Translations under genes and position numbers: made by a program
Notes under the pieces: generated by a model
Databases searched by the model: none
Told to the model about the DNA's origin: nothing
What the model saw: the letters and a program-made list of their open reading frames with translations, nothing else
In this document: positions 2,647-45,280 of the stretch, piece after piece
Layout of the letters: every line of letters starts with the position of its first letter
Position numbering within the stretch: position 1 is the stretch's first letter
Assembly: GCF_000768675.1 (NCBI RefSeq)
Contig: NZ_AVPI01000003.1
Location: 1-46,423 of the forward strand
Length of the DNA stretch: 46,423 nt
Origin: Knoellia flava TL1
GTDB lineage: Bacteria; Actinomycetota; Actinomycetes; Actinomycetales; Dermatophilaceae
Direction of reading: 5' to 3'

Positions 2647-3655
2647 GCGGACGGCATACGAGGGATTCATCGCAGGGCTGCCGAAGGCAGAGCTGCACGT
2701 GCACCACGTGGGGTCCGCGCTCCCAGAGACCGTCGCGCGCCTGGCGCAGCGGCACCCGGACTCCGGTGTGCCACAGGACATCGAGGCGCTGCGCGACTTC
2801 TACACGTTCTCGGACTTCGACCACTTCATCGACGTCTACCTCGCCGTCGTCTCGCTGCTGCGCACGCCCGAGGACATCCACCTGCTCACCTACGAGGTCG
2901 CCGAAGGCCTTGCGGCACAGCGGGTTCGCTACGCCGAGCTGACGATGACACCCTTCACGAGCGTGCGCATGGGCATCCCGATCGAGGCCTACACCGAGGC
3001 GATCGAGGACGCGCGCCGCGCCGCCGAGCGCGACCACGGGATCGTCCTGCGCTGGATCTACGACATCCCCGGCGAGGCCGGCCTCGCCTCCGCCGACGCG
3101 ACGCTCTCGTATGCCGTGGAGCACGGTCCCGAGACCCTGCTCGGCTTCGGCCTCGGCGGCCCGGAGGTGCCGCGGCCGCAGTTCCGCGAGCACTTCGAGC
3201 GCGCCCGCGCCGCCGGGCTCCGCCCGGTCCCCCACGCCGGTGAGTCGACCGACGCACAGTCGGTCTGGGACGCCCTCGACGCGCTCGGCGCCGAGCGCAT
3301 CGGCCACGGCATCCGCTCCATCGACGACCCGCGGCTCGTCGAGCGCCTCGTCGCCGAGCGCATCCCGCTGGAGGTCTGCCCGACGTCCAACATCGCCACC
3401 CGGTGCGTCGAGGGCCTCGAGGACCACCCGCTGCGCGCGCTGCGCGACGCCGGCGTCGTCGTCACCGTCAACAGCGACGACCCGCCGATGTTCGGGACCA
3501 CGCTCAACGACGAGTACGCCATCGCCGCCGACCTGCTCGACCTCGACGAGCCCGGCCTGGCCGAGCTCGCGGCGACCGCGGTCGACGTGAGCTTCGCCCC
3601 CGAGGACGTCAAGCGCCGCGTGAAGGACGAGATCAGCGCGTACGCCGGCGAGTGA
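2639..3655 (+). CDS. add: Adenosine deaminase-family protein
   Basis: A 338-residue amidohydrolase-fold deaminase. Zinc ligands and catalytic residues are visible: HVH (20-22) in place of the usual HLH, HAGE (199-202) with the catalytic Glu, the RIGHG segment, and NSDDP (about 278-282). The wording of the N-terminus (LPKAELHVHHVGS) and of the GFGLGGPE segment resembles the Streptomyces subgroup that includes aminodeoxyfutalosine deaminase. The substrate may therefore be adenosine or a 5'-modified adenosine such as aminofutalosine. The ATG overlaps the preceding kinase gene by 8 nt. The 3' end overlaps the convergent glycosylase gene by 23 bp, so transcription from both sides collides there. 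It carries two copies of the GTATGCCG motif (2653 and 3109). Confidence 0.85.
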   Translation: MGERTAYEGFIAGLPKAELHVHHVGSALPETVARLAQRHPDSGVPQDIEALRDFYTFSDFDHFIDVYLAVVSLLRTPEDIHLLTYEVAEGLAAQRVRYAELTMTPFTSVRMGIPIEAYTEAIEDARRAAERDHGIVLRWIYDIPGEAGLASADATLSYAVEHGPETLLGFGLGGPEVPRPQFREHFERARAAGLRPVPHAGESTDAQSVWDALDALGAERIGHGIRSIDDPRLVERLVAERIPLEVCPTSNIATRCVEGLEDHPLRALRDAGVVVTVNSDDPPMFGTTLNDEYAIAADLLDLDEPGLAELAATAVDVSFAPEDVKRRVKDEISAYAGE

Positions 3656-4247
3656 CCGCCGGGCGGTAGGCGCTCACGGTCGGCTCCCCGTCGATCCAGA
3701 AGCGGTAGGGGTATGCCGTCCCATCACCACCGGGACCGCTCACCCCCACCCGGGGACCCGTCCGCACCCGGGCCGGGTCGACGGACTCGGGTGGCGCGGC
3801 GAACGACACCGACCCACCGGCGCAGACGTCGATGCCGTCGTGGGCGCGGTCGATGCCGAGGGTCCGGGTGAGACGGGCCGGGCCGCGCGCCCAGTCGCGC
3901 TCACGCAGGCCCGGGCGCCGGGACGCCGCGAGCTCGTTCCCTGCGACGACCTCACCGGCCCGGAGCAGGACGGCCTGCGCCACGCCCTCGTCGCCGCAGA
4001 CGGCGTTGGCGCACCAGTGCATGCCGTAGCTGAAGTAGACGTAGAGGTGGCCGGCCTCGCCGAACATCACCTCGGTGCGCGGCGTGCGCCCCCGGAAGGC
4101 GTGTGAGCCCGGGTCGGCGCCCTCGCCGGCATACGCCTCGACCTCGGTGAGCCGAACGGTGACGCCCTCGTGCGTGAGCAGGCAGCCGAGCAGCTCGGGC
4201 GCGACGACGAGCGCCGGCCGGGCGAAGAACGAGCGCGGCAGGCTCAC
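3633..4247 (-). CDS. 3-methyladenine DNA glycosylase (AAG/MPG family)
   Basis: Removes alkylated purines from DNA as the first step of base excision repair. The 204-residue product matches the length of bacterial AAG proteins. Family landmarks are LLGCLL near the N-terminus, TEVEAYAGE with the catalytic Glu, [33 protein letters not shown] and [14 protein letters not shown] chose GTG at 4247 because it overlaps the argH stop in a GTGA, like most junctions in this operon. A start nine codons upstream is possible. It is the last gene of the arginine operon; repair genes hitch-hiking behind argH are common in actinobacteria. The 3' end overlaps the deaminase gene on the other strand. Confidence 0.93.
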
Positions 4248-5680
4248 CGCACCACGGGCAGCGAGGACGCCCACTCGCGCGCGGCGTCGCGCTGGGCCGA
4301 GGCCCGGGACAGCTGCTCCGCCACGCGGGCCGGTGCGGTGCCGCCCTTGGCGTCGCGCGAGGCGAGCGAGCCCTCGACCGAGAGGACGTCACGGACCGCC
4401 GGGGTGAGGTGCTCGGAGACCGCCGACAGGTCGTCGTCGGTGAGGTCCCACAGCTCGATGTCGCGCGACTCGCAGACGCGCACGCACTCCCCCGCGACCT
4501 CGTGGGCCACCCGGAACGCCACGCCCTCGCGCACGAGCCACTCGGCGATGTCGGTGGCGAGCGAGAAGCCCTGCGGGGCAAGGGACTCGAGCCGCTCGGT
4601 GTCGAAGACGAGCGTGTCGACCATGCCGCTGAACGCCGGGAGCAGGACCTCGAGGGTGTCGATGGAGTCGAAGACCGGCTCCTTGTCCTCCTGGAGGTCG
4701 CGGTTGTAGGCGAGCGGCAGACCCTTGAGCGTCGTGAGGAGTCCACCGAGGTTGCCCACGAGGCGACCCGCCTTGCCGCGGGCGAGCTCGGCGACGTCGG
4801 GGTTCTTCTTCTGCGGCATGATGCTCGACCCGGTCGAGTAGGAGTCGTCGAGCGTGACGAAGCCGAACTCCTTGGTCGCCCAGAGGATGACCTCCTCGGC
4901 GATGCGTGACAGGTCCACCGCGACCATCGCCGTGACGAACGCGAACTCGGCGACGACGTCGCGGGCGGCGGTGCCGTCGATCGAGTTCTCGACCGAGCCG
5001 TCGAAGCCGAGGTCGGCGGCGACCGCCTCGGGGTCGAGGCCGAGCGAGCTGCCGGCGAGGGCGCCGGAGCCGTAGGGGCTCAGCGCGGCCCGGGCGTCCC
5101 AGTCGCGCAGGCGCTCGACGTCGCGCAGCAACGGCCACGCGTGGGCGAGGAGGTGGTGGGCGAGGAGGACCGGCTGGGCGTGCTGGAGGTGGGTGCGGCC
5201 GGGCATGGCGACGGTGGGGTGCCGCTGGGCCTGCGCGACGAGCGCGTCGACGACGTCGAGGACGAGGCCGGCGAGGGTGCGGGCGTGCTCGCGGAGGTAC
5301 ATCCGGACGAGGGTCGCGACCTGGTCGTTGCGCGAGCGCCCGGCCCGGAGCCGTCCGCCGACGTCGGCGCCGGCCCGCTCGATGAGGCCGCGCTCGAGGG
5401 CGGTGTGGACGTCCTCGTCGTCGGGCGCGGGGACGAACGCACCGGACTCGACGTCGGCGGCGAGCCGGTCGAGGGCGTCGAGCATCGCTGCGAGGTCGGC
5501 GTCGTCGAGCAGCCCCGCAGCGTGGAGGACGCGGGCGTGCGCGCGCGAGCCGGCGACGTCGTGCAGCGCGAGCCGCCAGTCGAAGTGGGTCGAGCGCGAC
5601 AGCTCCGCGAGGGCGTCGGCGGGTCCGCCGGTGAAGCGGCCTCCCCAGAGGCTGAGGCGGTCCGGACCGGTGTCGCTCAC
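4244..5680 (-). CDS. argH: Argininosuccinate lyase
   Basis: Splits argininosuccinate into arginine and fumarate, the last arginine step. The 478-residue product belongs to the fumarase/aspartase superfamily. The signature loop [12 protein letters not shown] is intact at about residues 284-295, and [12 protein letters not shown] and the catalytic TxHLQHAQP segment are present. GTG at 5680 overlaps the argR stop as GTGA; longer upstream-open frames lack ArgH sequence. argG, which supplies the substrate, is not in this operon as seen here and must lie elsewhere. Coupled downstream to the glycosylase gene by another GTGA overlap. Confidence 0.97.
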
Positions 5681-44868: not shown

Positions 44869-44869
44869 C

Positions 44870-45280
44870 TCAGCCCTGCTTCCACGGGAGGCCGGCGACC
44901 TTCCACCCGGACACCGTCCGGTGTCCTTCGGCGTCGTGCGGTCCCTCGAACCCCTCGAGGACGTTGTATGCCGGCCCCAGACCCGCGGCCGTCGCCGCCT
45001 CCGCGGCCGCGATCGACCGGACGCCGGAGCGGCACACGAAGTAGATCCGGACGCCCTCGCCCACACCGGCCGCGCGGAGGTCGTCGACGAACGCCTCGTT
45101 GACGCTGCCGTCGGGGTAGCGCTGCCACTCGACGAGGACCGGGAGGCTCCCGTCCGCGAGCAGCGGCACCCCGACGTAGGACCACTCGGCCCGGGTGCGC
45201 ACGTCGACGAGGACGGCGTCCTCGGAGGCGGTCACCGCGGCATACGCCTCGGTGGGGGTGACGTCACCGGCATAGGTCAT
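44870..45280 (-). CDS. Rhodanese-like sulfurtransferase
   Basis: A 136-residue single-domain rhodanese. The active-site Cys is in IYFVCRSGVRS (about residue 86), the usual CRxGxRS loop. The N-terminal TPTEAYAAV and VLVDVRTRAEW and the final VSGWKVAGLPW are family-standard. Start ATG at 45280 is 7 nt after TAGGCT, so leaderless. It is placed immediately before metZ. This fixed pair probably channels persulfide sulfur to homocysteine synthesis. Two motif copies. Confidence 0.93.
   Translation of the reverse strand: MTYAGDVTPTEAYAAVTASEDAVLVDVRTRAEWSYVGVPLLADGSLPVLVEWQRYPDGSVNEAFVDDLRAAGVGEGVRIYFVCRSGVRSIAAAEAATAAGLGPAYNVLEGFEGPHDAEGHRTVSGWKVAGLPWKQG

Follow-up and report, generated by a model that had tools for sequence, protein, structure and literature searches.

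The octamer in the window and in the genome

The stretch of DNA analysed here, referred to as the window, comprises positions 1 to 46,423 (46,423 nucleotides) of contig NZ_AVPI01000003.1 of Knoellia flava TL1, a member of the family listed as Intrasporangiaceae in the NCBI taxonomy and as Dermatophilaceae in some records. Among its genes are those for argininosuccinate lyase, ornithine carbamoyltransferase and GlnE, the last being 85–89% identical to GlnE of four Knoellia species, with the next best match at 71%. Scattered over this DNA is the octamer GTATGCCG, which the original prediction, made from the letters of the window, had described as an over-represented, unstranded tag resembling a DNA uptake sequence. 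Its count of 36 copies between 2652 and 45246, 18 in each orientation, proved exact (the first copy starts at 2652 and the last occupies 45238–45245), compared with 0.42 expected, and none of 100 dinucleotide shuffles reached 36. Equally accurate was the estimate of about three copies for the related octamer GTACGCCG, which occurs at 3640, 11829 and 39697 only, with 2.3 copies expected by dinucleotide shuffles. The reverse complement of GTATGCCG is CGGCATAC, so the word is not a palindrome of the kind represented by HIP1.

Across the whole genome (3,561,699 bases in 94 contigs), we counted 2,541 copies, 1268 forward and 1273 reverse, or about one per 1.4 kb. The reversed word, used as a control, reaches only 94 copies (44 and 50) in the same genome, a 27-fold difference. 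In a 421 kb sample of the genome, GTATGCCG occurs 319 times and all 24 octamers one base away from it are rarer, led by GGATGCCG with 92 and GTAGGCCG with 54 copies. The flanking bases are skewed as well: a T follows the octamer in 0.57 of the copies and an A in 0.00 (rounded), and an A precedes it in 0.02. Because of this skew, recognition probably extends somewhat beyond the eight bases, the extended form being approximately GTATGCCG plus a T, G or C.

Codon use, reading frames and non-coding density

As a control for coding constraints, synonymous codons were shuffled in predicted genes (the codon null below), using the window and 8 of 20 stretches of the Knoellia flava genome, 8 of 20 stretches of the one-contig Knoellia genome G003, and 8 of 35 loci for Streptomyces. 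The codon-aware count proposed earlier as a check does not fit such a model: the predicted genes in 206 kb of DNA contain 166 copies of GTATGCCG versus 11.6 expected, a 14-fold excess. This null is even generous, since the word itself raises the frequency of TAT codons. Within 280 kb of confidently called genes, 75 of the 163 TAT codons (46%) and 13 of the 20 ATA codons lie inside GTATGCCG; the corresponding figures in G003 are 29 of 226 and 3 of 10. With fewer than half of the TAT codons inside the octamer, the earlier statement that almost no TAT exists outside TATGCC was too strong.

The 241 framed genic copies of the 421 kb sample make use of all six frames, reading Tyr-Ala in 92 cases, Ala-Tyr in 87, Met-Pro in 22, Gly-Ile in 16, Arg-His-Thr in 14 and Val-Cys-Arg in 10, whereas the control word GGATGCCG falls into a single frame in 59 of 79 cases in the same DNA. 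Tyr-Ala and Ala-Tyr together account for 179 of the 241 copies, and for 19 of the 27 genic copies of the window by our calls (some of the open reading frames are doubtful), rather than for 25 of 27 as first stated. The division into 27 genic and 9 non-genic copies was reproduced. Outside genes the word reaches a density of 1.29 per kb versus 0.68 per kb within them (421 kb), these fractions being approximate as the gene caller is a crude one based on GC content at third codon positions (GC3). The predicted intergenic enrichment is therefore present, at a factor of 1.9 that recurs in G003, but it is smaller than had been implied. Non-coding DNA makes up 8% of the window and 13% of the 421 kb sample by these calls, compared with the 5–6% assumed before.

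Orientation, spacing and motif-poor stretches

Orientation relative to the chromosome was assessed in G003, over 20 stretches of 20 kb each. The G-rich strand carries 129 of the 236 copies and the other strand 107 (p = 0.17), so the claimed lack of strand bias stands in the sense that no significant bias of the Chi type was found in this relative; the guide was GC skew, which is weak in G003, the origin was not located, and there may be a small bias. Copy counts per stretch fit a Poisson distribution in G003 (variance-to-mean ratio 1.03) and are slightly under-dispersed in the Knoellia flava genome (0.63 over 17 stretches), where the spacing of copies is near exponential. The largest gap free of GTATGCCG, 9.8 kb long, is a polysaccharide-synthesis island with a GC content of 61–68%, compared with 72% in the sample. 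Similarly, one stretch of G003 (L232) holds 3 copies in 20 kb and contains a low-GC cluster with sugar-use genes.

The inverted pairs that had been taken as a hallmark of uptake sequences were recovered in part. Pairs closer than 45 bp are inverted in 10 of 13 cases in the Knoellia flava genome, and three pairs of the window fold as hairpins (Table 1); the number of close pairs as such does not exceed chance, a point to which we return below.

Table 1. Copies of GTATGCCG and hairpins formed by its inverted pairs in the window
Feature	Position	Strand	Remarks
GTATGCCG copy	2652..2659	-	in gene, Ala-Tyr frame
GTATGCCG copy	3109..3116	+	in gene, Tyr-Ala frame
GTATGCCG copy	3711..3718	+	in gene
GTATGCCG copy	4127..4134	-	in gene
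GTATGCCG copy	5982..5989	-	between the genes for argininosuccinate lyase and ornithine carbamoyltransferase
GTATGCCG copy	7742..7749	+	
GTATGCCG copy	8598..8605	-	
GTATGCCG copy	9087..9094	-	
GTATGCCG copy	11065..11072	+	in gene
GTATGCCG copy	11517..11524	-	in gene
GTATGCCG copy	13972..13979	+	
GTATGCCG copy	14548..14555	+	in gene
GTATGCCG copy	14853..14860	-	in gene
GTATGCCG copy	19881..19888	-	
GTATGCCG copy	21496..21503	+	
GTATGCCG copy	21931..21938	-	intergenic by our gene calls
GTATGCCG copy	23528..23535	-	left arm, inverted pair
GTATGCCG copy	23538..23545	+	right arm, inverted pair
GTATGCCG copy	23683..23690	+	intergenic by our gene calls
GTATGCCG copy	25453..25460	-	in gene
GTATGCCG copy	26746..26753	-	
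GTATGCCG copy	28155..28162	-	in gene
GTATGCCG copy	28213..28220	+	in gene
GTATGCCG copy	31377..31384	+	in glnE
GTATGCCG copy	32637..32644	-	near called start of glnE
GTATGCCG copy	36775..36782	+	in gene
GTATGCCG copy	37577..37584	+	left arm, inverted pair
GTATGCCG copy	37595..37602	-	right arm, inverted pair
GTATGCCG copy	37872..37879	+	
GTATGCCG copy	40636..40643	+	intergenic by our gene calls
GTATGCCG copy	41068..41075	-	left arm, inverted pair
GTATGCCG copy	41088..41095	+	right arm, inverted pair
GTATGCCG copy	42958..42965	-	
GTATGCCG copy	43091..43098	+	
GTATGCCG copy	44966..44973	+	
GTATGCCG copy	45238..45245	-	intergenic by our gene calls
Hairpin stem, inverted GTATGCCG pair	23526..23547		23518-23555 folds at -17.6 kcal/mol, z -1.8, 10/200 shuffles as good
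Hairpin, inverted GTATGCCG pair	37572..37606		-27.4 kcal/mol, z -3.1, 0/200 shuffles as good
Hairpin, inverted GTATGCCG pair	41061..41101		-24.2 kcal/mol, z -3.5, 1/200 shuffles as good

Positions 34117–36627, which lie in a 4.1 kb gap of the window free of GTATGCCG, encode an M6 metallopeptidase of the immune inhibitor A type, with glnA and glnE next to it. One gene of the window was also used in a phage search, which gave no match.

Conservation of the copies among Knoellia species

In alignments with five other Knoellia (80–87% nucleotide identity in the aligned parts), 55 of 76 copies of GTATGCCG are identical, compared with 1629 of 4090 octamers sampled at equal GC content. Seven one-base neighbours taken from the same alignments are identical in 47 of 99 cases when pooled, the individual values being 21/36 for GGATGCCG, 13/21 for GCATGCCG, 8/15 for GTAGGCCG, 4/9 for GTCTGCCG, 1/13 for CTATGCCG, 0/3 for GTGTGCCG and 0/2 for GTACGCCG. 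The same maintenance is visible at the level of codons. Where tyrosine is conserved, TAT stays TAT in 40 of 48 cases inside the word versus 26 of 87 outside; where alanine is conserved, GCA stays GCA in 35 of 41 versus 102 of 508 cases. These codon counts cover all ordered pairs among six Knoellia sets, so that the cells are not independent and p-values are not strict.

The silent transition neighbour GTACGCCG is depleted 5-fold under the codon null (7 versus 36.7 expected in 206 kb), while neither GTAGGCCG (24 versus 17) nor GGATGCCG (39 versus 29) is depleted; this is what one expects if the neighbour in question is the one most easily converted. Both forms combined, GTAYGCCG amounts to 173 copies versus 48 expected, and copies must therefore have been gained beyond conversion. 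Relative to expectation, GTATGCCG is up by about 154 copies and GTACGCCG is down by about 30, i.e. the gain does not equal the loss of the supposed precursor. Homologous sites that lack the copy in other Knoellia read GTACGCCG, GTAGGCCG, GGATGCCG or CTACGCCG, or are more divergent. Given these several different neighbours, copies and neighbours interchange by several changes.

Distribution of the word among relatives

We counted GTATGCCG in 58 genomes, labelled by G-numbers: 9 Knoellia, 27 from other genera of the family and 22 from other families. Judged by identical counts, G008, G007, G001 and G002 correspond to K. locipacati, K. sinensis, K. aerolata and K. remsis, G010 to Austwickia chelonae and G027 to Nostocoides sp. 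F2B08, and each of these is counted once. The word is dense in all nine Knoellia genomes, with 1,971–3,277 copies. The 27 other genera of the family divide into 12 with a dense word (939–4,724 copies), three with intermediate counts (196–293) and 12 with 11–95 copies; in G023, the count of 1,142 is accompanied by a reversed control that is also high (453). None of the 22 genomes of other families has a dense word (2–167 copies, controls alike), and a class-wide draw of 345 genomes found it dense only in the family of Knoellia, in 5 of the 8 members sampled. A slight excess, 170 copies versus 27 of the reversed control, was seen in G351 of family f45, the rest of which is at background.

A set of 20 named genomes, four of them Knoellia (1,971–3,277), displays the same pattern. 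Dense counts were obtained for Phycicoccus elongatus (2,614), Pedococcus bigeumensis (2,551), a Lapillicoccus bin (3,681), a Terracoccus sp. (2,244), Humibacillus xanthopallidus (3,225) and an uncultured Serinicoccus (1,535). Lower counts were found in Phycicoccus endophyticus (18), Phycicoccus sp. CSK15P-2 (34), Janibacter indicus (18), G524 (30), Mobilicoccus (35), Kineosphaera (66), two Austwickia (149 and 83), Nostocoides (196) and Allobranchiibius (202).

Variant and unrelated words in other lineages

De novo word counts in genera without dense GTATGCCG suggested one-base variants of the word, and counts over whole genomes confirmed most of these. The octamer GGATGCCG occurs 3,949 times in G033 and 3,816 times in G024, versus 260–976 times in other family members except G009 (1,336), and it exceeds the codon null in both genomes (37 versus 6.4 and 26 versus 4.2 expected, respectively); G024 additionally retains 235 copies of GTATGCCG (control 47). 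In Nostocoides sp. F2B08, GTATGCGG reaches 1,204 copies, with 107 of the reversed control and 13 versus 2.4 expected under the codon null. Counts of GTATGCGG in G019 and G025 (433 and 459) were disregarded, the reversed controls being 461 and 312. The depleted neighbour of Knoellia, GTACGCCG, is itself the enriched word in G030, with 2,216 copies (control 143), 36 versus 8.7 expected under the codon null, and all six frames in use.

GTACGCCG is also raised in G031 (1,359) and G026 (752), above the 93–590 of other family members. In G031 this hints only weakly at a dialect, because 9 of 10 sampled copies lie in Tyr-Ala or Ala-Tyr frames, none is non-coding, and the codon null gives 10 versus 4.4 expected; the count in G026 likewise hints only weakly at one. 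Two genomes of another family, G039 and G057, with 834 and 900 copies of GTACGCCG, were set aside (14 of 16 copies in Tyr-Ala or Ala-Tyr frames, none non-coding). At one Allobranchiibius locus, 28 copies of GTACGCCG stand against 6.4 expected under the codon null, a figure from that single locus. Taken over the 15 genera of the family without dense GTATGCCG, a variant is well supported in four (G033, G024, G027, G030) and weak in three (G031, G026, G009), and none of the four related words is dense in the other eight (G010, G014, G016, G017, G018, G021, G022 and G035).

A different word, CGAAGGGG, is abundant in Janibacter indicus (2,337 copies), two genomes of genus g52, which may be Janibacter (3,180 and 2,589), and G524 (2,201), where the reversed controls amount to 110–144. 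It occurs 138–253 times in the other 12 of the 16 genomes in this count and 51–376 times in the 58 relatives. In the three of the four CGAAGGGG-rich genomes (G230, G535, G524, G587; Janibacter loci L019, L022, L023) in which GTATGCCG was counted, the latter is at background. CGAAGGGG looks like an independent uptake-type word, unrelated to GTATGCCG. A further word, CGGATGCC, marks a second family of the same order (f19), with 1,468–4,093 copies in 15 of 17 genomes and 313 and 619 in the other two; the rest of the 248 genomes of the order have 38–1,002 copies, with the highest values in genomes of 7.8–9.4 Mb. In a 40 kb sample, CGGATGCC lies in several frames as well as outside genes (e.g., loci L226 and L227 of G055, family f19).

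The bases flanking the word also differ by genus. When ComEC proteins are placed in a tree, G033 and G024, both with GGATGCCG, group as sisters (99/96) beside the GTATGCCG user G023 and the wordless G035, and G031 and G026 are sisters as well; several deeper forks are left open and the tree carries a long-branch warning. The dialects are nearly exclusive to their genera, one to a lineage, GTACGCCG being sure in G030 only and weaker in G031 and G026. Judged by these comparisons of sequence, the dialects follow lineages and switch within them, as described for the Neisseriaceae (PMC3630211).

Markov models also picked out words in genera that lack a dialect, such as CGAGCAGG in G009, and most of these words fell towards the codon null. 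A locus of Kribbella monticola (L068) displays a general excess of GTAC-centred words under the codon null, with 13 versus 1.1 expected for GTACTGCG, 20 versus 3.2 for GTACGGCG and 26 versus 5.8 for GTACGCCG. At G053:C1:28082-31265 lies an array with a period of ~61 bases and GTATGCGG in each unit, which may be a tandem repeat or a CRISPR-like array.

Transformation machinery

The comEA, comEC and pilus genes for which a search had been suggested are present in the Knoellia flava genome, and they are also found in genera without the word. ComEA adjoins ComEC; their best NCBIfam models, TIGR01259 and TIGR00361, match at nearly full length and below the curated cut-offs, and ComEC is above the Pfam cut-off. 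A Tad-type cluster lies next to a DEAH helicase and an Rv3654c-type gene. The names TadA, TadB, TadC, TadE and Ssd are our own assignments; curated cut-offs were passed by just two products of the cluster region, the DEAH helicase and the Rv3654c-like protein. ComEA was recovered from all 34 loci compared, in terms of presence only.

PilT was tried as a marker of an uptake pilus and rejected: it is over the cut-off in 11 of the 58 genomes and, within family f1, only in G032 (with fragments in G013). A second Tad cluster of the Knoellia flava genome, on contig C41, has no counterpart by E-value in the Knoellia genomes G002 and G003. Between TadC and TadE (L249:11108-12594) we noted two extra genes, which read as a sortase-like protein and an anchored surface protein; neither gave a tblastn match in 16 other Tad loci.

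Interpretation and alternative explanations

We consider it likely that GTATGCCG is a DNA uptake sequence of Knoellia. In most of the sequence-based tests, the resemblance first noted in the window is borne out: by the density of the word, its excess over the codon null, its lack of significant strand bias in G003, its scatter, its enrichment in non-coding DNA and its scarcity in two low-GC stretches, and above all by the dialects of the different genera, which are the most telling observation. As in known uptake sequences, a dense non-palindromic word is scattered over both strands of a genome that encodes transformation machinery. In the mechanism we propose, the apparatus for natural transformation would include a DNA receptor on the cell surface, presumably a Tad pilin or ComEA, that prefers double-stranded DNA bearing GTATGCCG, and the bound DNA would be handed to ComEA and then to the ComEC channel. 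Homologous recombination would write the incoming motif-bearing alleles into the genome. Since fragments that gain the word by chance mutation would be taken up more often, the word would accumulate by molecular drive wherever it is tolerated, i.e. at silent positions and in non-coding DNA. Upon a shift of receptor preference in a lineage, the genome would gradually be rewritten to the new dialect. An uptake role is favoured over other roles because of these dialects, in which thousands of sites differ between related genera: biased uptake combined with recombination would give rise to them by itself, an outcome hard to reach via selection on the sites of a structural protein.

Several observations weigh against an uptake role. 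The presence of the machinery does not track the word, and no receptor emerged from the comparison of ComEC and Tad genes: ComEC is found in 57 of the 58 genomes, with no split between genomes with and without the word, and the eight wordless genera of the family have ComEC with none of the related words dense and CGAAGGGG at background as well. In 16 Tad loci, chosen at TadA-like matches (so that TadA is present in 16 of 16 by construction), we recognised TadB in 15, TadE in 11 and a gene resembling Rv3654c in 6, among word-bearing and wordless genomes alike. Neither TadE nor the Rv3654c-like gene was recognised in the 18 kb Tad locus of G003, a Knoellia that has the word. PilT gave no match over the cut-off in the nine Knoellia genomes and is therefore not the carrier there. 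Close pairs of copies (< 40 bp) number 11 versus 9.8 expected, no excess over chance. A third motif-poor stretch (L245, 5 copies) leaves the annotation accounting for two of three such stretches. Finally, high density does not in itself make a word an uptake sequence, as illustrated by GGCGATCGCC in Synechocystis, with 5,648 copies versus 5 expected (PMC1939737).

The word might alternatively be a binding site for a protein that serves chromosome structure, replication or repair and has no part in uptake, a role also suspected for HIP1. An even spread over the chromosome (variance-to-mean ratio 0.63), strong maintenance and transformation genes that do not track the word would all suit such a site. 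We regard this explanation as unlikely in view of the thousands of sites that lie one base apart between related genera and of the unrelated word of Janibacter: rewriting them would require selection site by site, whereas uptake drive would rewrite them unaided. The word is moreover non-palindromic, unlike HIP1, and the polysaccharide island is without a copy. A recombination hotspot of the Chi kind, at which the word would regulate a helicase-nuclease of the RecBCD, AddAB or AdnAB type, seems quite improbable. Chi functions in a single orientation and shows a strand bias, and its word differs between lineages. In G003 the two strands do not differ significantly (the skew is weak and the test imperfect), and equal forward and reverse totals over a genome do not bear on Chi polarity. 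Chi (GCTGGTGG) of Escherichia coli is likewise an over-represented octamer, with 1,008 copies versus 151 expected, i.e. ~7-fold (PMC1939737), compared with 14-fold over the codon null and 27-fold over the reversed word for GTATGCCG.

A mutational product, arising by C-to-T decay of methylated GTACGCCG or by context-dependent mutation, could account for the selective depletion of GTACGCCG, which a silent transition separates from GTATGCCG in both main frames; under pressure of this kind, TAT and GCA inside the word would be stable as well. C-to-T decay alone, offered earlier as an alternative, fails on the GTAYGCCG total and the varied homologous sites, at which GTAGGCCG, GGATGCCG and CTACGCCG occur as well. 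With G030 enriching GTACGCCG itself, G033 and G024 GGATGCCG and Nostocoides GTATGCGG, we judge a mutational origin highly unlikely. The predominance of Tyr-Ala and Ala-Tyr frames is what an artefact of codon, dipeptide or base composition would produce, but this explanation is refuted by the codon shuffle and disfavoured by the six frames in use, the non-coding enrichment and the 94 copies of the reversed word; nor is there any enrichment in the 22 order-level genomes or in the non-family genomes of the 345 drawn, save the slight one in G351. Its probability is negligible.

Comparison with known systems and significance

DNA uptake sequences (DUS) of the Neisseriaceae occur in both orientations and in inverted hairpin pairs, uptake signal sequences (USS) of the Pasteurellaceae are less GC-rich and tied to uptake by a type IV pilus and secretin, and Micrococcus belongs to the Micrococcales, the order of Knoellia. 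The Knoellia word resembles DUS in being short and non-palindromic, with about a thousand to several thousand copies and lineage dialects (PMC3630211). In the Neisseriaceae, as described there, dialects differing by one or two bases track the lineages, and certain related genera have none (PMC3630211). Unlike DUS, the Knoellia word consists of eight fixed bases in a Gram-positive genome of 72% GC, with a presumed uptake role. USS are likewise genome-wide self-tags with divergent types within one family, comparable to GTATGCCG-type words and CGAAGGGG, and their receptor was long unknown (PMC12616744); unlike in USS carriers, the genes found in Knoellia are those of a Tad-type pilus with ComEA and ComEC. 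HIP1 (GCGATCGC) of cyanobacteria is, according to the source, a palindrome containing a methylase site (PMC1939737). The words described here share with HIP1 a very high density on both strands and an unsettled cause, and differ from it in being non-palindromic and in changing from genus to genus. Unlike Chi, GTATGCCG displays no significant strand bias. Molecular drive has been discussed for both DUS and USS (PMC1939737).

The machinery of Knoellia is of the same kind as the Tad/Flp pilus and ComEA/ComEC of the competence system of Micrococcus luteus, in which transformation requires tad genes (PMC4322843); the term 'uptake sequence' is absent from that paper. A paper of 2025 names only Neisseriaceae and Pasteurellaceae as known for self-tagged uptake (PMC12616744), and among the open-access titles listed, none dealt with an uptake sequence in this group. 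The papers listed by a text search for the octamer were unrelated.

We lean towards the broader view, built on word counts, that self-DNA tagging for transformation arose in the Gram-positive Actinomycetota and is widespread there, in at least two families of one order, with a receptor that would be either part of a Tad/Flp pilus or ComEA and with dialects that may form barriers against the exchange of genes between soil bacteria. Neisseriaceae and Pasteurellaceae are both Gram-negative, so a third and a fourth family in Gram-positives would mean that self-tagging evolved again, with different machinery. Natural competence would then be predicted for many soil actinobacteria, and a matching octamer might help with environmental strains that are refractory to transformation. 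The six words would provide natural variation for finding the receptor, and they could serve to test whether such tags owe their origin to molecular drive or to selection for conservative sex.

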